From an uncultured Lachnospiraceae bacterium (GTDB lineage: Bacteria > Bacillota > Clostridia > Lachnospirales > Lachnospiraceae), in NCBI GenBank assembly GCA_902796425.1, contig CADBPC010000030.1, forward strand, positions 1-36,009: 36,009 bases of DNA, written 5' to 3'. Both the position numbers and the translations under genes were made by a program. The first letter of the stretch is position 1, and the number at the start of each line of letters is the position of its first letter. This document shows positions 15,629 through 35,606 of the stretch, piece after piece. A model generated the notes under the pieces. It was not told the origin of the DNA. It saw nothing but the letters and a program-made list of their open reading frames with translations, and ran no database searches.

Positions 15629-17950
15629 ATGGTCAGGATCGGTATGTTGGTGGCGGACCGCTACGAGGTGCTCGAGAAGATCGGCACCGGCGGAATGTCC
15701 GTTGTTTACAGGGCAAAAGATCATAAACTGAACAGACTGGTAGCTATTAAGTTTCTTAAGCAGGAATTTTCCGACAATGCGAATTTTGTCTCCAAATTCC
15801 GCGTCGAGGCGCAGGCTGCGGCAGGACTGATGCATCCCAATATCGTCAACGTCTATGACGTGGGCGATGAGAAGGGCATGCATTATATTGTCATGGAGCT
15901 TGTCGACGGCATCACGCTGAAAAAATATATCGAGAAGAAGGCAAGACTCTCCGTCAAGGAAGCCATCAGCATCGCGATCCAGGTTTCCATGGGACTGGAG
16001 GCCGCGCACCAGAATCATATTATTCACAGGGATATCAAGCCGCAGAATATCATCATTTCCAGGGACGGAAAGGTGAAGGTGACGGATTTCGGCATCGCCA
16101 AGGCGGCTACGAGCAATACGATTACGTCCAATGTCATGGGCTCCGTCCATTACACGTCCCCGGAACAGGCAAGAGGCGGCTATTCGGACGAGAGGAGCGA
16201 CATCTATTCCCTCGGCATCAGCATTTTCGAGATGCTGACCGGGCGCGTGCCGTTTAACGGTGAGACGACGGTTGCGATTGCCATCAAGCATATTCAGTCC
16301 CAGATGCCCTCTCCCAGGGAATTTGTGCCCGACATTCCCAGGAGTGTCGAGCAGATTGTCATGAAATGCTGCGAGAAGAGCCCGGACCGCAGATACCAGA
16401 ACATGGCGGAGCTGATCGCGGACCTGAAGCAGTCTCTCCTTCATCCCGACGACGATTTTGTCCGTGTCATTCACCCGGATGAGGACGGCGCCACCAGGAT
16501 TTCAGACAGCAGGGAACAGGGAGAAATCCGCCGGTATTACCGCGACCGGGACGAGTATGACGAGTATGACGGCGAAGAGGAGGAAGACTCCTATGATTCT
16601 TCCTTCCGGCAGGAAAGTCAGTACGATCATTATGTCGAGGACGATTATCCGGAGGAGGACGAGGATCCGTACGATACGCACGGCTTAAACGACATGCGTT
16701 CCGCGTCCGATGCAGGCCGCGGAGGATACACGGACCAGAATATCTACCGGCAGGAAAGAGATTCTTATTCCGCAAGGGAGAGCCGCCGTGAAAAGCGCCG
16801 CTACGAGGATGATTACGACGACTATGATGACGGAGAGTATAATCCGCACAAGTACAGGCTCGCCACCATACTTGCGGTTATCGCCGCGATCCTGATCGGC
16901 GCGGCCGTCATCACCTATGCCGCGGACAGACTGGGGCTGATGAACCTGGGACTGTTCGGCGAGAGCAGCACTTCCGAAGAGACAGATGAGACCGTGGAAC
17001 AGCTCGTGCAGATGCCCGCGGTTGTAGGACAGGAGGGCGAGTCGGTAAGGAACCTCCTGCAGTCCATGGGACTGACAGCGGAGATCACCTATGCGGAATC
17101 CTCGGAGTACGCCGCGGGAATTGTGGCGGCGTCGAGTATCAGCGAAGGCACGCCGGTGCCCGAGGGCACGACGGTCATGCTCACCGTCAGCGCGGGCGAA
17201 AACGGTATTAAGATACCGGATGTAACAGGAAAGCCGCTCGCGGAAGCGATCGCGCTTCTCCATGAGAAGGGATTTTCCGTAAGCCGTGAGGAGAGACCGG
17301 ACGACGGCACCGCCAAGGGCAGCATTGTCTCACAGAGTCCGGAGGCCGGACAGGCAGCTCCTTCAGGCTCAACGATTTCTATTATCATCAGCTCCGGCCC
17401 CGCGACAGAGGGCAGGGTGAAGGTGCCGACACTGACAGGACTTCCGGAAGAGGATGCCACTGCGGTGCTTATCGAGAACAAGCTTTCTGTCGGAGAGGTC
17501 AAGCAGGTCGAGGTTACGGATCCGAACCTGAAGGGCCTTGTCAGCAGTCAGAGCGTCGCCGCGGACACCTATGTTGAAGAGGGCACGGCGGTAAACCTTG
17601 AGATCGGCAAAATGTCGGATCAGGAACAGGCACAGCCCGAAGTTTCCAGCTACAGCTATACCGAGGCGATCGGCGCTCCTACAGCATCCGAGGCTCCGGA
17701 CTATGTTCCCGGGACGCAGGTTTATGTCGTCCTGATTTCGGCCGACGGGCAGAAGCTCCTGGACACGGTTACGACGGGCTTCCCCATCCAGACCGGATTC
17801 ACGGGGATTGCGGCTCCGACCGGGACCCTGCAGATGAGCTATACGTCGACCGTCGTTACGACGGATCCCAATACCGGGGCGCAGGTAACCGCTCCGGGAG
17901 AACAGAAGGTCGTCCGCAGGAGCATCGCCTTTACTCCTGAACAGAATTGA
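15629..17950 (+). CDS. prkC: PASTA-domain Ser/Thr protein kinase PrkC
   Basis: This membrane kinase senses muropeptides or lipid II outside the cell and phosphorylates cytoplasmic proteins of division, wall synthesis and translation. CAGGGAG lies six bases before the ATG. The kinase domain (residues ~10-275) has GTGGMSVVY, K41, HRDIKPQN (catalytic D135), DFGIAKA (D153) and SPEQARGG. Residues ~280-405 are a highly charged Asp/Glu/Tyr/Arg juxtamembrane linker, longer than in B. subtilis. One membrane helix lies at ~411-431. Three PASTA repeats follow (~462-526, 527-594, 596-660), each opening with a P-x-V/L-x-G pattern. A C-terminal beta domain of ~110 residues (from ~665) has no PASTA signature. 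It is encoded between the phosphatase and RsgA, the usual order. Confidence 0.95.
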   Translation: MVRIGMLVADRYEVLEKIGTGGMSVVYRAKDHKLNRLVAIKFLKQEFSDNANFVSKFRVEAQAAAGLMHPNIVNVYDVGDEKGMHYIVMELVDGITLKKYIEKKARLSVKEAISIAIQVSMGLEAAHQNHIIHRDIKPQNIIISRDGKVKVTDFGIAKAATSNTITSNVMGSVHYTSPEQARGGYSDERSDIYSLGISIFEMLTGRVPFNGETTVAIAIKHIQSQMPSPREFVPDIPRSVEQIVMKCCEKSPDRRYQNMAELIADLKQSLLHPDDDFVRVIHPDEDGATRISDSREQGEIRRYYRDRDEYDEYDGEEEEDSYDSSFRQESQYDHYVEDDYPEEDEDPYDTHGLNDMRSASDAGRGGYTDQNIYRQERDSYSARESRREKRRYEDDYDDYDDGEYNPHKYRLATILAVIAAILIGAAVITYAADRLGLMNLGLFGESSTSEETDETVEQLVQMPAVVGQEGESVRNLLQSMGLTAEITYAESSEYAAGIVAASSISEGTPVPEGTTVMLTVSAGENGIKIPDVTGKPLAEAIALLHEKGFSVSREERPDDGTAKGSIVSQSPEAGQAAPSGSTISIIISSGPATEGRVKVPTLTGLPEEDATAVLIENKLSVGEVKQVEVTDPNLKGLVSSQSVAADTYVEEGTAVNLEIGKMSDQEQAQPEVSSYSYTEAIGAPTASEAPDYVPGTQVYVVLISADGQKLLDTVTTGFPIQTGFTGIAAPTGTLQMSYTSTVVTTDPNTGAQVTAPGEQKVVRRSIAFTPEQN

Positions 17951-18923: not shown

Positions 18924-21134
18924 ATGAATCCTGAAGGTGGAAAAAAGCTGCAGCCGTATCTTTCTCCCGCGGGGGCGTGGGCGCTTTCACTCGGGACCGG
19001 AATCGGATGGGGATCGCTCGTCATCACGGGCAGCACCTATCTTCTTAAGGCCGGACCTGCGGGGACGGTTGCCGGACTGATCGCCGGCGCCCTGATCATG
19101 CTGGTTATCGCCCGCTGCTATCACTATATGATGGGCTGCTATCCGGAGGCGGGCGGCGCATATTCCTTCGCAAAGTATGTGTTCGGCTATGACTTCGGAT
19201 TTCTTGCCGCCTGGTTCATGCTCCTGACCTATCTTTCCATGCTGTGGGCAAACGCCACGGCGCTGCCTCTTTTTGCAAGATACTTTCTCGGCCAGATTTT
19301 CCATTTCGGACGGCTCTACACAGTTTTCGGATATGATGTATATTTCGGCGAGGTGCTGCTGACCGATGCGGCTATCCTTCTCGCCGGGCTTTTGTGTGCG
19401 GGCAGCAAAAAGACGGCGGCACGGCTCCTGACCGGAATGGCGGTTTTTCTTACCGCCGGCATCCTGGTCTGCTCGGTCTTCAGTCTGGTAAATCTTGATA
19501 TTTCGATTGAGCCGCATTTTATACCCGGCAGCTCTGCTGTCTGGCAGGCGGCGAAAATTGCCTTTGTATCGCCATGGGCCTTCGTCGGTTTTGAAAACAT
19601 CTCTCATGCGACAGAGGAGTTCTCTTTTCCGAGAAGCAGGGCGTTCCGCATCCTTCTTGTGTCCGTTATTTCATCCACGGCGCTCTACATTCTTGTGTCG
19701 CTCCTGTCGGTGACCGCATACCCTCCAGAATATGATTCCTGGGTATCCTATATCCGTGAATCGGGGAGCCTAAACGGCATTAAGGGAATTCCGGCTTTTT
19801 ACGCGGCGGATTATTATATGGGCAGCACGGGCGTCCTTATCATGATGATAACGCTTCTGTGCCTTATCGGAACGAGTCTTATCGGCAATATCCTTGCGCT
19901 CAGCAGGCTTTTGTACGCGATGGCAGAGGACAGGATCATCCCTGACCGGTTTGCCGCGCTGAATGCGGATCATACTCCCGCAAACGCGATATACCTGATT
20001 GTCGCCGGATCTATGCTGATTCCTTTTATCGGCAGGACGGCGGTCGGCTGGATTGTTGATGTGACGACGATCGGCGCGACAATTCTGTATGCGACGGTTT
20101 CCGCGTCTGCGGCAAAGCTCGCCGCCGGAAGGAAGGACATCCGGGACCGGAATTTCGGCATTGCAGGCCTTGTGATCATGCTTGTCTTCGGCGTATATCT
20201 GCTGCTGCCGAACCTGTTCACGACCTCCTCCATGGCGACGGAGTCTTATTTCCTGTTTGTTGTCTGGGCAATCCTCGGGTTTGCTTTTTTCCGCTATGTC
20301 CTTAAAAATGACTCAGACAAGCGCTTCGGCCAGTCGATCGTCGTCTGGATCGCGCTCCTTTCGCTTGTCCTTTTTGTCTCTCTGGTATGGATGAACCAGT
20401 CCATGATGAATGCGACCGTCAGGGCAATGGATCATATCCTGCAGTATTACAGCGAAGCGGGAATCGATATTGCGCAGTCTGCGCTCATTGCAGATGAAAT
20501 TGCAGCCATACGAATGACCAACGCCCGCAGTATTATCGTCGTGGTTATCCTGATCGGCATATCGCTGGCAGTGCTTTTAAACAACTACTCGGTTATGAGA
20601 AAGCGCGCGCAGGAGAGTGAATCACAGCTCGACAGGATATGGACAATGGCCAATACCGACCCGCTCACCGGAGTCCGCAGCAAACATGCCTTCGCTGAGA
20701 AGGAAAAGAAGGTGGATGCCCAGATAGCGGACAATACGCCTGAAGAATTCGCTGTGGCTGTCTGTGACGTGAACAATCTCAAAAAGGTCAACGACACATA
20801 TGGCCATAATGCGGGAGACGCATATATCAAGGCGGCCAGTGCGATTATCTGCGAGGTATTCCGCCACAGTCCCGTATACCGCACGGGAGGCGACGAATTT
20901 GTCGTCTATCTGGTCGGGCGTGATTATGAGGCAAGGCAGAATCTTCTGAGGGAGATGCATGATAAGTCCGTCGCCAATATCGGAAGCGGCAGCCCTGTCA
21001 TCTCGGTCGGAATGAGCGATTTCCGTAAGGACAGCGACGGGAGGCTTCGCGCCGTACTCGAGCGCGCCGACGCGGGAATGTACGAGGAGAAAAAGAGCCT
21101 GAAAAGCATGGAGGCTAAGGAAGGTCCTAAGTAA
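18924..21134 (+). CDS. Amino-acid/polyamine permease fused to a GGDEF diguanylate cyclase domain
   Basis: This 736-residue fusion has a good start: AGGTGA at 18915-18920, then ATG at 18924. Residues ~10-470 are an APC-superfamily permease (LSLGTGIGWGSLVITG in helix 1, PWAFVGFENISHATEEF in helix 6, about twelve helices). Two more helices (~475-497 and ~535-557) enclose an outward loop of about 40 residues. A short polar helix (KRAQESESQLDRIW) then leads to a GGDEF domain (~570-730) with DPLTGVRS, NNLKKVNDTYGH and intact G655-GDEF. The inhibitory RxxD site is absent: the relevant positions are Phe and Ser. It is probably a membrane sensor or transceptor that makes cyclic di-GMP in response to a ligand; whether it still transports is unknown. 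It is the last gene of the run. Its end overlaps the convergent TRIC gene by eight bases. Confidence 0.9.
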   Translation: MNPEGGKKLQPYLSPAGAWALSLGTGIGWGSLVITGSTYLLKAGPAGTVAGLIAGALIMLVIARCYHYMMGCYPEAGGAYSFAKYVFGYDFGFLAAWFMLLTYLSMLWANATALPLFARYFLGQIFHFGRLYTVFGYDVYFGEVLLTDAAILLAGLLCAGSKKTAARLLTGMAVFLTAGILVCSVFSLVNLDISIEPHFIPGSSAVWQAAKIAFVSPWAFVGFENISHATEEFSFPRSRAFRILLVSVISSTALYILVSLLSVTAYPPEYDSWVSYIRESGSLNGIKGIPAFYAADYYMGSTGVLIMMITLLCLIGTSLIGNILALSRLLYAMAEDRIIPDRFAALNADHTPANAIYLIVAGSMLIPFIGRTAVGWIVDVTTIGATILYATVSASAAKLAAGRKDIRDRNFGIAGLVIMLVFGVYLLLPNLFTTSSMATESYFLFVVWAILGFAFFRYVLKNDSDKRFGQSIVVWIALLSLVLFVSLVWMNQSMMNATVRAMDHILQYYSEAGIDIAQSALIADEIAAIRMTNARSIIVVVILIGISLAVLLNNYSVMRKRAQESESQLDRIWTMANTDPLTGVRSKHAFAEKEKKVDAQIADNTPEEFAVAVCDVNNLKKVNDTYGHNAGDAYIKAASAIICEVFRHSPVYRTGGDEFVVYLVGRDYEARQNLLREMHDKSVANIGSGSPVISVGMSDFRKDSDGRLRAVLERADAGMYEEKKSLKSMEAKEGPK

Positions 21135-27674: not shown

Positions 27675-28412
27675 ATGGGTCAGAAGAGAGTTTATCGGGA
27701 AGACAGAGGGTATACCCGGAGCAGGACGCCGGTAAGGCGCGCTGCTGCGGGATCTTCTGCGCCCTCCCGGACGCCCGCAAGGCGCACTGCTGCGGGATCT
27801 TCTGCATCTGCCCGGACACCGGTAAGGCGCACCGGCACCGGTTCTTCCGCACCTTACAGGGCCGCGGTATCCGCAAGGAGCGCCGACAGGGGCTACGGAA
27901 GGACGGGATCCTCCGCACGGATGGCGACGCAGCAGGCGTACGTTTACGGAAGCGCCGCACTTGCAGCGCAGCCCCAGGAAGTGCCTGCGGTCCGGCAAAA
28001 GGCTGCCGCGCCGGCTCCGGTCAGACAGACGAGGAGCGAGGCACAGAAAAAGCGCAGCCAGGACGCCGTATTAAGAAACAGGGAAAAAGCCGGCAGGATG
28101 AACGCCGCGCTCATCGTATTCATGACGATGGTCCTTTGCGTTATGGCCTTCGGTCTGGTACACTTTATCAATCTGCGGGCGAGCGTCACCTATTCCGTCA
28201 AGGAAATCTCCAGACTGGAGTCAGAGCTTGCCACACTGCGCGAGAGCAATGCGGAGACGCTTGGCCAGATCAATGCATCCATCAATCTGGAGGAGGTAAA
28301 ATACCGGGCGATCGCGGATCTTGGCATGACCTACGCAGATGAAGGGCAGATCGTTAACTACAGCGCGGGAACAGACGACTATGTTCACCAGTCCAAACAG
28401 CTGGATGATTGA
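27675..28412 (+). CDS. ftsL: FtsL-like septum protein with long basic repetitive N-terminal tail
   Basis: Position between rsmH and the class B PBP, together with topology, identifies a bitopic FtsL/DivIC-type divisome protein. AAAGGAAG lies upstream of the ATG at 27675. Residues 1-140 are a cytoplasmic low-complexity tail rich in Arg, Ala, Ser and Pro, containing three 15-residue repeats (R17-Y61). One membrane helix follows (~142-163, IVFMTMVLCVMAFGLVHFI). A predicted coiled coil comes next (~172-205, ISRLESELATLRESNAETL), then a C-terminal IADLGMTYADEGQIV segment like that of FtsL family members. B. subtilis FtsL has 117 residues, so this one is about twice as long, nearly all of the extra being the tail. 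In relatives FtsL links DivIB, DivIC and the septal synthase. Confidence 0.8.
   Translation: MGQKRVYREDRGYTRSRTPVRRAAAGSSAPSRTPARRTAAGSSASARTPVRRTGTGSSAPYRAAVSARSADRGYGRTGSSARMATQQAYVYGSAALAAQPQEVPAVRQKAAAPAPVRQTRSEAQKKRSQDAVLRNREKAGRMNAALIVFMTMVLCVMAFGLVHFINLRASVTYSVKEISRLESELATLRESNAETLGQINASINLEEVKYRAIADLGMTYADEGQIVNYSAGTDDYVHQSKQLDD
27723..27857 (+). repeat. Three 45-bp tandem repeats in the FtsL-like tail
   Basis: Three consecutive units of 45 bp encode variants of RTPVRRAAAGSSAPS (residues 17-31, 32-46, 47-61). Units one and two share long identical stretches; the third is more diverged. Frame is kept, so the number may vary between strains. Confidence 0.85.
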
Positions 28413-28421
28413 TACGGATAT

Positions 28422-30995
28422 ATGAGTAACGCTACGGGCAAAAACGCCGGAAGAGGAACATCGAAACAGTTTGAGAGAAAGATGCAGGAAAAGCTGGTGG
28501 TACTGTTTATTCTGGTACTGCTGGCTTTTGTATTTCTGATCGGCCGTATTTTCAGCATCAATCGCAACAACGGCGAGGAGTATAAAAAGCAGGTCCTGTC
28601 GCAGCAGTCCTATGACAGCCGCGAGCTTCCCTTCCGCCGCGGGACGATTACGGATTCAAAGGGAACGATTCTTGCCAATTCCGAGCTGGTATATAATGTA
28701 ATTATCGACGCATACCAGATGAACAACGGCCCGAAGAACGATGAGGGAATCAGTATCTATCTGGAACCTTCACTGGATGCCGCTCCCTCGTTGGGACTCG
28801 ACCGTGCTTTCATCGCGGGATATGTGAGGGATAACCCGGACTCCCGCTATTATGTGGCGCGAAAGAACCTTCCCTACAGCGAGAAGGTCGCTTTTGAACA
28901 GTCCATTACGGACGCCGCTGCGAGAGTTTCGAACATCCGCGAATCCATCAGCGAGGAGAAGGAAGGAACAAACGACGAGGCAAGGATCGCACAGCTCGAG
29001 CTCCTTTTAGAGGAAGCGGAGAATGAAAACCGGAGATTCAGCAATATCAAGGGGATCTGGTTCGAGCCGGCCTATATCCGCTCCTACCCTTCCGGGTCGC
29101 TTGCGAGCAACCTGATCGGTTTTGCCAATAACAACAACGAGGGGAGCTTCGGCCTCGAGGGATATTACAACGATACCCTCAACGGCACGGCGGGGCGCGA
29201 GTACGGCTATCTCAACGACGATTCCACACTGGAGAGAACGATTGTAGACGCGATCGACGGCAACAACCTTGTCCTTACGATCGATGCGAATATCCAGAAC
29301 ATCGTTGAAAAATATATCCTGAAATTCAACGAGCAGTTTGCGAACAATCACCATGAGGGGTACGGCGCGCGCAACATCGGCTGTATCATACAGAATGTAA
29401 ACAACGGCGAGATCCTTGCGATGGCTTGCTATCCGAACTACGATCTGTCCGATCCGTACAACACGGATCTGATCGTCGGCATGCCCAAGCTCAACGACAG
29501 GGACCAGCCCACCTATGAGTATATGTCCCAGGAGGATGTGGACGCCCTCGATTCCGAGCAGCAGTCCCGCTACCTGAACGCTCTGTGGAGAAACTACTGC
29601 ATCTCGGAGTATTATGAACCCGGATCGGTCGCGAAGCCCTTCACCATGGCGGCGGGAATCGAATCCGGCCATATGACCGGAAATGAATCCTATCTCTGCG
29701 AGGGCTCCATGAACATCGGCGGATGGGACATCTATTGCCACAACACCCACGGCGACGGGTGGCTCACGGCGTGCGAGGCGATCGAGCGCTCCTGCAACGT
29801 GGCGCTGATGCAGATGGCGCTGGCAACGGGAATCGATGATTTTACCAGGTTCCAGCGGATTTTTAACTTCGGACTGAAGACCAATATCGACCTTGCGGAC
29901 GAGGCGAGGACGGACACGCTGATTTACCAGCCGTCGGCAATGGGCATCACTGACCTTGCGACCAACTCCTTCGGACAGAACTTTGACGTGACCATGATCC
30001 AGATGATCACCGCGTTCTCCTCCCTGGTAAACGGCGGAAATTATTACGAGCCCCATGTGGTCAAAAAGATCACGAGCCCTACCGGAGCGACGGTTCGCAA
30101 TATTGAGCCGAGACTCCTGAAAAAGACGATCTCCGCCGCAACCAGCGAAAAGGTAAAAGAGGGCACTCTTGCCGTTGTCGCGGGCGTTTACGGAACCGGC
30201 CACACGGCAAGGCCCGCGGGCTATATGATCGGCGGAAAAACAGGTACCGCGGAGACCTATCCCCGCGATCACACCAATTATGTCGTCAGCTTCATGGGAT
30301 ACGCGCCGGCGGATGATCCGCAGATTGCGATCTATGTAGTTGTCGACAGGGCGAATACCTGGAGGCAGGACGATGCAAAATACGCCACGGGAATCGTGCG
30401 CGGCGTCCTCACCGAGGTTCTCCCGTATCTGGGAATCTATATGACCGAGCCGCTCACCGAGGCGGAGGAAGCGGAACTTCGCGAAATGAATATCGCCAAT
30501 ACGCTCGCGTACGGCGCAGGATCCATCCGCACCGCTCCCAGGGCGCTGATCCTCAACCTGGATACGGACGGCGACGGAAAATACGATGCAGTTGACGGCA
30601 ACGGGGACGGAGCTGCCGACACGCCGCTCGATTCCAACGGGGACGATATCACGGACTGCGTGGATGTCGACGGCGACGGGAAAGCGGACTTTTACGACAC
30701 GGACAATGACGGAAGAGTCGATTCCGAAAAGCCCGCGGACGGCCAGATGGACCTGACAAGACAGGTGACGGAGAGCGGCGAGAATGCATCCCAGGTGGTG
30801 AACCAGCTGCCGGTCTGGAAGACCTATTCGGTCGATCCGCAGACAGGATACTATGTCAATCCGACGGACGGCACATTGATCGATCCCGAGACGGGGCATT
30901 CCTACGGAATAACGACAATGAGCGGGTTCGAGACAGAGAATTCACAGATCAGCTCCGGACAGACGGCCGACCCGGAACAGACGGCGGGACAGTAA
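28422..30995 (+). CDS. Class B penicillin-binding protein (FtsI/SpoVD type) with C-terminal calcium-binding repeats
   Basis: This is a peptidoglycan D,D-transpeptidase of the septum, paired with the SEDS protein encoded two genes on. A cytoplasmic basic start is followed by a membrane helix (~25-47), then the pedestal domain with RGTITDSKGTILA, the usual R-G-x-I-x-D motif. The transpeptidase domain has S402-VAK405 (nucleophile and base), S457-CN459 and K606-TGTAE, all intact. At 857 residues it is longer than SpoVD (~645) or PBP2B (~715). No PASTA domain is present. Instead, residues ~714-773 hold five DxDxDG-type repeats, followed by a ~80-residue tail with YYVNPTDGTLIDPETGHSY. Lineage-specific naming (ftsI, pbpB or spoVD) cannot be settled from sequence alone. 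Confidence 0.93.
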   Translation: MSNATGKNAGRGTSKQFERKMQEKLVVLFILVLLAFVFLIGRIFSINRNNGEEYKKQVLSQQSYDSRELPFRRGTITDSKGTILANSELVYNVIIDAYQMNNGPKNDEGISIYLEPSLDAAPSLGLDRAFIAGYVRDNPDSRYYVARKNLPYSEKVAFEQSITDAAARVSNIRESISEEKEGTNDEARIAQLELLLEEAENENRRFSNIKGIWFEPAYIRSYPSGSLASNLIGFANNNNEGSFGLEGYYNDTLNGTAGREYGYLNDDSTLERTIVDAIDGNNLVLTIDANIQNIVEKYILKFNEQFANNHHEGYGARNIGCIIQNVNNGEILAMACYPNYDLSDPYNTDLIVGMPKLNDRDQPTYEYMSQEDVDALDSEQQSRYLNALWRNYCISEYYEPGSVAKPFTMAAGIESGHMTGNESYLCEGSMNIGGWDIYCHNTHGDGWLTACEAIERSCNVALMQMALATGIDDFTRFQRIFNFGLKTNIDLADEARTDTLIYQPSAMGITDLATNSFGQNFDVTMIQMITAFSSLVNGGNYYEPHVVKKITSPTGATVRNIEPRLLKKTISAATSEKVKEGTLAVVAGVYGTGHTARPAGYMIGGKTGTAETYPRDHTNYVVSFMGYAPADDPQIAIYVVVDRANTWRQDDAKYATGIVRGVLTEVLPYLGIYMTEPLTEAEEAELREMNIANTLAYGAGSIRTAPRALILNLDTDGDGKYDAVDGNGDGAADTPLDSNGDDITDCVDVDGDGKADFYDTDNDGRVDSEKPADGQMDLTRQVTESGENASQVVNQLPVWKTYSVDPQTGYYVNPTDGTLIDPETGHSYGITTMSGFETENSQISSGQTADPEQTAGQ
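30561..30753 (+). repeat. Five DxDxDG calcium-binding-type repeats at the PBP C-terminus
   Basis: Five motifs of 11-12 residues spacing follow each other: DTDGDGKYD, DGNGDGAAD, DSNGDDITD, DVDGDGKAD, DTDNDGRVD. All fit D-x-[DN]-x-D-[GD]-x-x-D, the loop of thrombospondin type 3 and EF-hand-like calcium sites, here in the extracellular part of the protein. Confidence 0.85.
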
Positions 30996-31017: not shown

Positions 31018-31986
31018 ATGACAGACCTTCTTAAAGACACAGTTATAGCATTGCTTGTCGCCTTTGCGGTGAGTGCGGTGACAGGAAAGTTCCTGATCCC
31101 CGCCCTGATCAGGCTCAAGGCCCAGCAGACGGAGAGAGATGACGGGCCCAAGAGCCATCTTTCCAAGACAGGCACCCCCAATATGGGCGGCATCATGATT
31201 ATCGCCGGCCTCATGGCAGGCGGCCTGATCTCCAGCCTGCATCACCCGGAGGTTCTCCCGGTGCTTTTCATGACACTGGGATTCGGTATTGTCGGATTTT
31301 CCGATGACTTCATCAAAGTCACAAAGCGCCGCAGCGAGGGACTGACCGTAAAACAGAAGTTCCTGATGCAGATCGTTATCTCTGTGGTATTCGGCCTGAT
31401 CATCCTTTACCTGAACGGGATTCCGCTGGATCTGAAGATTCCTTTTGCCGCGGGGAGCCTCATCAGGCTCGGAGTGATCGGCTTCCCGGCGCTTGTCTTT
31501 ATCAGCGTTGCGACCGTCAACGGAACCAACCTGACGGACGGTGTGGACGGCCTGCTGTCCTGCGTAACCGTTGCCGTGACCCTCTTTTTTACGATAGCGG
31601 CCTACAGCGCGGGTTCCGGCGCTGCCACTGCCGGCGGCGCGATGATAGGGGCGCTTCTGGGCTTCCTTCTTTATAATGCACATCCGGCAAAGGTATTCAT
31701 GGGAGATACCGGTTCTCTTGCGATCGGCGGATTTGTCGTCGGCATGGCGTATGTCCTGCAGCTTGCGCTGTTTATCCCGATTGTCGGGTTTATCTATATG
31801 CTCGAAGTAATCTCTGTCATCATGCAGGTGAGCTACTTCAAGGCGACGCATGGAAAGAGAATCTTCAAAATGGCGCCGATCCACCATCATTTCGAACTCT
31901 CCGGATGGGGTGAGGTCCAGGTAGTTGCATTATTTACGATTATTACGGTTCTGCTCGCAGCGGTATCGCTTCTGGGCCTTTGGTAA
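31018..31986 (+). CDS. mraY: Phospho-N-acetylmuramoyl-pentapeptide transferase
   Basis: It forms lipid I from UDP-MurNAc-pentapeptide and undecaprenyl phosphate at the inner membrane face. GAGAGGAAGAG directly precedes the ATG at 31018. The ten-helix protein of 322 residues has the KSHLSKTGTPNMGG start signature, D96-D97 (FSDDFIKV), NGTNLTDGVDGLL, D230 (FMGDTGSLAIGG) and PIHHHFELSGW. All are catalytic or substrate-binding regions of the family. murF and murD normally flank mraY; neither is present here, and the SEDS gene follows after three bases. Confidence 0.96.
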   Translation: MTDLLKDTVIALLVAFAVSAVTGKFLIPALIRLKAQQTERDDGPKSHLSKTGTPNMGGIMIIAGLMAGGLISSLHHPEVLPVLFMTLGFGIVGFSDDFIKVTKRRSEGLTVKQKFLMQIVISVVFGLIILYLNGIPLDLKIPFAAGSLIRLGVIGFPALVFISVATVNGTNLTDGVDGLLSCVTVAVTLFFTIAAYSAGSGAATAGGAMIGALLGFLLYNAHPAKVFMGDTGSLAIGGFVVGMAYVLQLALFIPIVGFIYMLEVISVIMQVSYFKATHGKRIFKMAPIHHHFELSGWGEVQVVALFTIITVLLAAVSLLGLW

Positions 31987-34221: not shown

Positions 34222-34343
34222 CATAGTATTTCACAGACAAATCTGCTGAGTGGTATCAGGGGTTGATATCATGCGGCGTTTTAATTGTTATTGTTATTGC
34301 AAAGCCTGAACGGAAAAAGGATTTAGACGAAGGAGGCACCATC

Positions 34344-35606
34344 GTGCTGGAAATCAGAACTGAAGAGAACGAAACAGCCTGCAAAATCATCGTTGTCGGT
34401 GTCGGAGGAGCGGGTAATAATGCTGTCAACCGGATGGTTGAGGCACAGATTACGGGAGTTGAGTTTATCGGTGTCAACTCGGATGTGCAGGCGCTTCAGC
34501 GCTGCAAGGCTCCCAAGCTTCTGCAGATCGGAAATAAGCTGACAAGAGGTCTTGGCGCGGGCGCCAATCCGGATGTCGGCAAGAAATCCGCAGAAGAGAG
34601 TGCGGAAGAAATCTCGGCAGCCCTCAAGGGTGCGGATATGGTATTCGTTACCTGCGGTATGGGCGGCGGCACCGGAACCGGAGCAGCTCCTGTTATTGCC
34701 AAGCTGGCAAAGGATCAGGGTATCCTTACCGTCGGCGTTGTGACAAAGCCCTTCAGCTTTGAGGCAAAGGCCAGAATGACAAAGGCACTTGAGGGAATTG
34801 AGGCCATCAAGCCGAATGTCGATACACTGATTGTTATTCCGAACGACAAGCTTCTGGACATCATGGACAGGCGGACAAACCTTCCGGATGCGCTCAGAAA
34901 GGCGGATGAAGTCCTGCAGCAGGCAGTTCAGGGCATCACAGATCTGATTAACGTTCCTTCGATTATCAACCTCGATTTCGCAGATGTGCAGACCGTTATG
35001 CGCGAGAAGGGCATGGCCCATGTCGGTATCGGCTTCGGAAAGGGCGACGACAAGGCTACACAGGCAGTCAAGGCAGCCGTGGAGAGCCCGCTCCTTGAGA
35101 CAACGCTTGACGGCGCTACCGATGTCATCCTCAATATTTCCGGTGACATCTCCCTGTTCGACGCGAACGACGCCGCTTCCTTCGTACGTGACATTACCGG
35201 CGATGACATCAATGTTATCTTCGGTGCGAAATATGATGACAGCGACGCGGATTCCTGCATGGTTACCGTTATCGCGACGGGAATCGACCAGAGCCGCAGG
35301 AAGAGAGATTCTTCCAATCCGTTCGACAGAAGATCCTTTGCTTCCGGAATGCAGGGCTACGGCCAGCAGCCTCAGGGCGGACAGAACTATGCGGGCAGGA
35401 CAGGCTACGGCCAGCAGGGTTACGGCCAGCAGATGCCCCAGAATTATCCCCAGCAGGGCTACGGCCAGCAGCCTCAGGGCGGATATACACAGCCGCAGTA
35501 CAACTTCAATCCCGGCAGTATCCACACAGGTATGGATACGTCCAGCATCGTGATTCCTTCCTTCCTCCAGAAGAGAGGGGAGAACGGCGAGAGTACCTTG
35601 GATTGA
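34344..35606 (+). CDS. ftsZ: Cell division GTPase FtsZ with GYGQQ-repeat linker
   Basis: This tubulin homologue forms the Z-ring. I start it at GTG 34344, seven bases after AAGGAGG (34330-34336). The longer ATG frame from 34263 lacks a ribosome binding site and adds a hydrophobic stretch foreign to FtsZ. The 420 residues hold [28 protein letters not shown] (tubulin signature), NDKLLDIMD and the T7 loop [11 protein letters not shown]. The linker (~residues 338-395) is a Gly/Gln/Tyr-rich low-complexity tract with four GYGQQ motifs and eight Tyr. The C-terminal peptide [12 protein letters not shown], which binds FtsA, SepF and other partners, is intact and is followed by ten more residues. A promoter of its own is likely in addition to operon read-through. 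Confidence 0.97.
35351..35483 (+). repeat. Direct repeats in the ftsZ linker
   Basis: A 31-base sequence is repeated exactly (35351-35381 and 35453-35483), with two shorter TACGGCCAGCAG copies between. They encode GYGQQPQGG units. Exact identity at DNA level suggests recent duplication or copy-number change. Confidence 0.85.

Follow-up and report, generated by a model that had tools for sequence, protein, structure and literature searches.

A thrombospondin type 3-like, putatively calcium-binding loop array on two class B penicillin-binding proteins of one Lachnospiraceae clade

The window analyzed here, a stretch of 36,009 nucleotides from an uncultured Lachnospiraceae bacterium, encodes a class B penicillin-binding protein (PBP) with an array of calcium-type loops behind its catalytic domain, as had been proposed in an earlier reading made from the sequence alone (the sequence-only reading). 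Class B PBPs are the targets of beta-lactams and the partners of SEDS proteins, and the role of their C-terminal tails is little understood. The PBP gene is flanked by an FtsL-like open reading frame (ORF; 27675-28412) and a MraY-like ORF (31018-31986), and the gene order is mraZ, mraW, ftsL, PBP, mraY, ftsW, divIB, ftsZ, where the neighbors were named from their translations, without a family scan. The protein has the following features.

28422..30995, plus strand: SpoVD/FtsI-like class B PBP of 857 aa (PF00905, E 5.8e-56; PF03717, E 1.4e-11; TIGR02214, E 1.7e-107)
29382..30407, plus strand: Transpeptidase domain (PF00905), aa 321-662
30561..30722, plus strand: five-loop TSP3-like (calcium-type) array, aa 714-767, with five strict motifs
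30561..30587, plus strand: loop 1, DTDGDGKYD
30594..30620, plus strand: loop 2, DGNGDGAAD
30630..30656, plus strand: loop 3, DSNGDDITD, with Asp at position 6, which is Gly in the other loops
30663..30689, plus strand: loop 4, DVDGDGKAD
30696..30722, plus strand: loop 5, DTDNDGRVD
30816..30908, plus strand: OCRE-like module WKTYSVDPQTGYYVNPTDGTLIDPETGHSYG, aa 799-829 (PF17780, E 1.5e-5)
30909..30992, plus strand: polar low-complexity C-terminus, read from the translation and variable among relatives

The presence of both PBP_dimer (PF03717) and Transpeptidase (PF00905) places the protein among the class B PBPs, and the PF00905 match, which runs from position 3 to position 297 of the 299 in the model, indicates that the transpeptidase domain is complete. 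The catalytic motifs SVAK, SCN, and KTGTAE (SxxK, SxN, and KTG) were read by eye in the translation. The best NCBIfam match is to TIGR02214, the SpoVD equivalog, at 360 bits and hence under the 688-bit cut-off of that model, and the closest solved structure by sequence is 7rcz, also SpoVD. Two neighboring genes show features of their own. The FtsL-like ORF (plus strand) has an Arg/Ala/Ser-rich repeat at its N-terminus (TPVRRAAAGSSAPSRTPARR...), which is presumably cytoplasmic, and the FtsZ-like ORF at 34263-35606 (plus strand) has a long C-terminal linker that is Gln/Gly/Tyr-rich, of low complexity, and prion-like in look.

The PBP contains five copies of the strict pattern D.[DN].D[GD]..D, at aa 714, 725, 737, 748, and 759, with spacings of 11, 12, 11, and 11 residues. 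The number of motifs, their spacing of 11 to 12 residues, and their position after a complete transpeptidase domain are all as first described; the span of 30561..30753 given at that time begins at the right position but ends about 10 residues too late, as the residues past 30722 belong to no loop. Five loops in this protein exceed chance: when the whole protein was shuffled 20,000 times, two motifs appeared in one shuffle and more in none, and among 20,000 shuffles of the 64-aa Asp-rich segment, five motifs appeared in a single one. Elsewhere in the window, translated in six frames, the strict pattern has one further occurrence, on the minus strand, antisense to a kinase ORF (15629-17950).

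Thrombospondin type 3 (TSP3) repeats are spaced at 11 to 12 residues, the twelfth residue being the first of the next loop, and dockerin consists of two loop-helix repeats of about 22 residues and has cohesin as its partner. The sequence-only reading had named thrombospondin type 3, dockerin, and EF-hand-like proteins as known bearers of such repeats and had proposed a domain search. Only the first of these likenesses persisted, and it did so by geometry, as the array consists of tandem DxDxDGxxDxxD loops at a spacing of 11 to 12 residues that leaves no room for helices, while the scores for both Pfam TSP_3 and EF-hand were under their cut-offs. Pfam TSP_3 (cut-off, 25 bits) matched 4 of 11 array tails with a best E-value of 0.078, the tail of the window protein not being among them. 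No match to this family over the cut-off was found in the 12 array genomes, where the search at an E-value of up to 1 gave 11 weak matches, 8 of them in the two array PBPs. When the 11 tails were compared with NCBIfam, the lowest E-values were those of MtsD (1.6e-4; 4 of 11 tails) and MtsC (2.7e-4; 6 of 11), which both have thrombospondin type 3 in their short names, followed by BamM (best E-value, 0.0017; 10 of 11) and CglD (0.0022; 6 of 11). BamM thus matches more tails than MtsC or MtsD, which counts against a TSP3 reading, and the window's own tail matched none of these four models and no TSP3 profile of NCBIfam or Pfam. Unlike TSP3 proper (PF02412; NCBIfam MtsC/MtsD), the array scores under the Pfam cut-off and is borne by a penicillin-binding protein, and on its geometry we class it as TSP3-like without filing it as a TSP3 member. 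An EF-hand was rejected because EF-hand_1 scored 9.9 bits on the window tail, against a cut-off of 25.4, and because a period of 11 residues would be too short for the flanking helices. Dockerin was also rejected, as it was absent among the 15 Pfam families matched by the 11 tails at E-values up to 10 and as cohesin was found in 0 of 12 array genomes. A comparison of the array with solved structures, by phmmer and profiles, gave mostly EF-hand proteins, at weak E-values. Judging from the motif, the array likely binds Ca2+; Rigden et al. associate Dx[DN]xDG motifs with Ca2+ binding (PMC3123361).

The dcw PBP was found in 60 of the 62 genomes of the genus. In a tree of 58 genus PBPs, from which the fragments G020 and G033 were dropped and in which G066, with an array cut by the contig end, was labelled by hand, the 12 array carriers form one clade (support, 100/99), and two three-loop proteins join it (support, 95/95). 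Counted with a loose pattern, eleven array tails have four to six loops and the contig-cut tail of G066 has three. Ten PBPs with the module and without an array share their side of the midpoint root with the array clade, and 33 of the 34 tree members labelled "none" lie on the other side. The named carriers are Lachnospiraceae bacterium NK3A20 (L167), which we take to be a rumen isolate, and CAG:791 (L170). In a sample of 392 genomes of the order, 41 tails were read, including the 18, among the matches listed, whose match passes query residue 121; none of them had an array, and no more than one loose motif was seen. With a 111-aa query that includes the array, nothing was matched at an E-value of 0.001 or below in 397 further genomes of the phylum. 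Both searches are samples from which a PBP with a different array would escape, and within them the array is specific to one Lachnospiraceae clade, the group of NK3A20. A class B PBP from another genus of the family (L315, G089:C2) ends in a lone loop-like DEDGDGIPDEWG. A plasmid origin of the tail was rejected, as tblastn of 189 aa against 72,556 plasmid records gave no match. An assembly artefact was rejected as well, given that dcw PBP arrays are present in 12 genomes and that in G072 both PBP genes lie on one 159-kb contig. Our literature search found no paper that joins thrombospondin type 3 with a penicillin-binding protein.

In most of the family, the slot behind the transpeptidase domain holds a Glu-rich linker and an OCRE-like C-terminal module. 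The consensus of this module, WKxFPxDPxTGY, was read in 66 of 79 related PBP loci, which are the readable ones of the best 80 of 499 relatives in named GTDB genomes (L189 was skipped), so that the fraction is not a family frequency. The remaining 13 loci comprise 10 short tails and 3 long tails without the module, namely, a contig-cut array protein (L162), a near miss with DPETGYLIEPETG (L210), and a Thr/Gly/Asp-rich tail (L175). The other Lachnospiraceae class B PBPs are the same enzyme with the same module, but they have a Glu-rich linker in place of the array or no tail at all. In the 10 linkers that carry an array, two of which have three loops, Asp makes up 20.2% and Glu 3.8%, and the median net charge is -20; in the 56 linkers without one, Asp makes up 7.1% and Glu 25.7%, and the median net charge is -18. 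The array and the Glu-rich linker thus share the same slot and a similar charge but differ in chemistry, the array having Asp, in a geometry of the metal-binding kind, at a place where Glu is the rule.

The window module scored 25.3 bits against PF17780 with the tail alone and 21.6 bits with the whole protein, around the cut-off of 24.7. It aligns with the Tyr/Asp/Gly octamer pattern of the OCRE domain of RBM5/RBM10 (PDB 5mf9; E-value, 0.0077), from which it differs in its borderline score and its presumably extracellular location. The OCRE domain binds proline peptides (PMC5127646). OCRE was found over the cut-off in 15 of the 62 genus genomes, in four of these in non-PBP proteins. Three proteins read as LytR-CpsA-Psr wall ligases (L146, L147, and L148, from G005, G078, and G027) carry near the C-terminus a PBP-like module of the DPNTGYLYDPNTGIVYDPNSG type, with OCRE over the Pfam cut-off. 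The PBP of G036 has the array and lacks the OCRE-like module, and no such module was seen in the second PBPs of the array genomes that are described below; because of these cases, the array does more than carry the module. In the genome of G036, a protein read as RnfD-like (L145) has a tail with five DPx[TS]G units.

SpoVD and PBP2x are PASTA-bearing class B PBPs, and like the window protein they have a C-terminal extracellular extension behind the transpeptidase domain. The sequence-only reading had presented the loops as standing in the place of PASTA domains. No PASTA domain was found in the 44 genus PBPs scanned, the window protein included, or in 10 named PBPs, at least three of which are apparently repeats of the 44. 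With no PASTA in any of these 54 scans, the array is not a stand-in for PASTA in these bacteria, and this part of the earlier description had to be given up. In the window itself, PASTA repeats were read by eye on the Ser/Thr kinase ORF at 15629-17950.

The shared slot and the similar net charge raise the question of whether the array is no more than the Glu-rich linker in an Asp-rich form, without a specific metal site and with Asp-Gly repeats that arose by slippage. The profile scores below the TSP_3 cut-off would fit this explanation. Rigden et al. argue that Dx[DN]xDG motifs arise readily in acidic regions, and a slippage-type origin is proposed there for these motifs in general (PMC3123361). 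The conservation of the array points the other way, as register, Asp positions, and length are fixed in 11 relatives although the codons vary. The array is 54 residues long without an indel in all 11 (G066 was left out of this alignment, as the array of its dcw PBP is cut by the contig end). Of the 26 role columns, 19 are invariant, 17 of these with more than one codon, and of the 28 other columns, 4 are invariant. Asp is invariant in 14 of the 15 columns for loop positions 1, 5, and 9, and position 3 is restricted to Asp and Asn. Glu, an equally acidic residue, does not occur at any ligand position in the 11 window-type rows, although it occupies position 9 in some loops of the second PBP in several genomes. 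In the two closest pairs, dN/dS of the array is like that of the catalytic core: the values for core, array, and post-array tail are 0.031, 0.026, and 0.14 for G004-G029 and 0.076, 0.049, and 0.22 for G069-G074. Three further pairs are near saturation, with values of 0.106, 0.111, and 0.278 for G030-G022, 0.157, 0.331, and 0.232 for G072-G014, and 0.142, not computable, and 0.215 for G000-G061; the array value above that of the core in G072-G014 runs counter to constraint, and in G030-G022 the array is not more constrained than the core either. Loops of the same geometry are also present on a second PBP. Taken with these observations, a plain acidic linker is in our opinion a rather unlikely explanation. 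The sequence-only reading had allowed for repeats that are absent from close relatives, as after a recent insertion without selection. Since the array is conserved in a clade of 12 carriers, with core-like dN/dS in the closest pairs, such an insertion is ruled out.

New here is the finding that a second class B PBP ends in a shorter array of such loops throughout the array clade. This PbpA-like protein was found in 61 of the 62 genomes, contains PF21922 and PF00905 in the four that were scanned, and in the genome of the window is encoded behind an ORF read as SEDS-like. Its tail has at least three loops in all 12 array genomes, where the tails have a common opening such as LNMDTNGDGIMDA. None of the 23 second-PBP ends read in non-array genomes carries loops: 21 are bare and stop within 68 residues of KTG, and those of G025 and G027 are other long tails (of the 49 non-array second PBPs, 25 more were judged by frame length only and G075 was left out). 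When the second PBP was used as a query against the 392 genomes of the order, all matches listed except its own ended by query residue 82, and the array starts near residue 113. The array search at an E-value of 1e-3 or below failed to pick up the second-PBP arrays of G004, G029, and G061, and a lack of matches in it is therefore weak evidence of absence. A third PBP is bare in the 10 genomes of 10 in which it was read (G014 and G066 were left out); we call it MrdA-type because it covers TIGR03423 end to end, with a score under the cut-off. In the array clade, loops are therefore found on two of three class B PBPs, and as the carriers are one clade, their co-occurrence on the two is effectively one phylogenetic observation. 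At the seven non-ligand positions, the identity of the two arrays is 0.43 within genomes versus 0.42 between genomes, which gives no sign of gene conversion between them. It had been suggested that the loops tune septal synthesis. With a similar array on a second class B PBP in 12 of 12 genomes, a purely septal role is doubtful, and tuning of septal synthesis is doubtful as the main role; the second PBP suggests this but does not prove it.

The presence of the array on two PBPs of the same genomes would fit an arm that, much as dockerin does with cohesin, docks onto another protein of the wall or surface and so unites the two PBPs in a shared complex. Some residues between the ligands are also conserved, and in six array genomes searched with a 57-aa consensus at E-values up to 10, nothing outside the two array PBPs was better than an E-value of 0.9. 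We consider such an arm unlikely, as no candidate partner was found and the 11-residue period would leave no room for the helices of dockerin. Cohesin in particular is an unlikely partner, being found in none of the 12 array genomes; of the 62 genomes of the genus, only G028 gave a match, and it lacks an array. Another possibility is a switch, in which loading and unloading of the arrays make cross-linking by the two PBPs follow the level of free Ca2+ in the wall or the wall's charge state. That two of three class B PBPs have arrays and the MrdA-type is bare looks like a regulated subset. Many tandem calcium loops, however, serve structure more often than switching, and we regard a switch as highly improbable.

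The explanation that we put first, and hold with about even confidence, is that two transpeptidases carry the array as an extracellular spacer that is ordered by Ca2+ and specific to this clade. The DxDxDGxxD loops would bind Ca2+ on the outer side of the membrane, and the loaded array would form an ordered and probably fairly stiff rod that, in the wall, keeps the C-terminal segment and the active site a fixed distance apart. The alternative form of the linker would be a flexible acidic chain, probably disordered. The array may have replaced the Glu-rich linker in the slot before the OCRE-like module, the linker presumably being first because of its wider distribution, and the replacement would bring some benefit to wall synthesis. 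Conserved calcium-type loops on two cross-linking enzymes raise the possibility that calcium stiffens or anchors the machinery that builds the wall. It is also conceivable, but in our judgment quite improbable, that the divisome-type PBP and the second class B PBP are a Ca2+-responsive pair of synthases, with their arrays acting together as a physical gauge or brake through which extracellular or wall-bound calcium controls how far two of the three class B PBPs reach or how active they are, in a clade that would also preserve the steps from Glu-rich linker to metal array. As two of three such enzymes in one lineage bear this kind of array, which in the closest pairs is conserved as strictly as the active-site domain, it can be tested directly whether extracellular divalent cations are linked to the cross-linking of the wall. 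Moreover, the forms placed on the tree (Glu-rich linker, three loops, and five loops) bear on the origin of Dx[DN]xDG motifs, for which Rigden et al. sought intermediates and reported no decisive case (PMC3123361).

Among the second PBPs, several lie in open frames of 894 to 1109 aa (G070:C57, G350:C5, G130:C4, G192:C1, and G251:C95). In the G070 frame, SEDS-like sequence precedes the PBP, and SEDS-PBP fusions may exist. The second-PBP tail of L097 (G074:C86) continues after its loops in an unrelated Cys/Gly/Arg-rich frame, as if frameshifted. Elsewhere in the window, the ORF at 18924-21134 (plus strand; 736 aa) looks like an amino-acid permease that has a GGDEF-type domain at its C-terminus (RTGGDEFVVYLVG) and thus, going by its translation, like a transporter-cyclase fusion.
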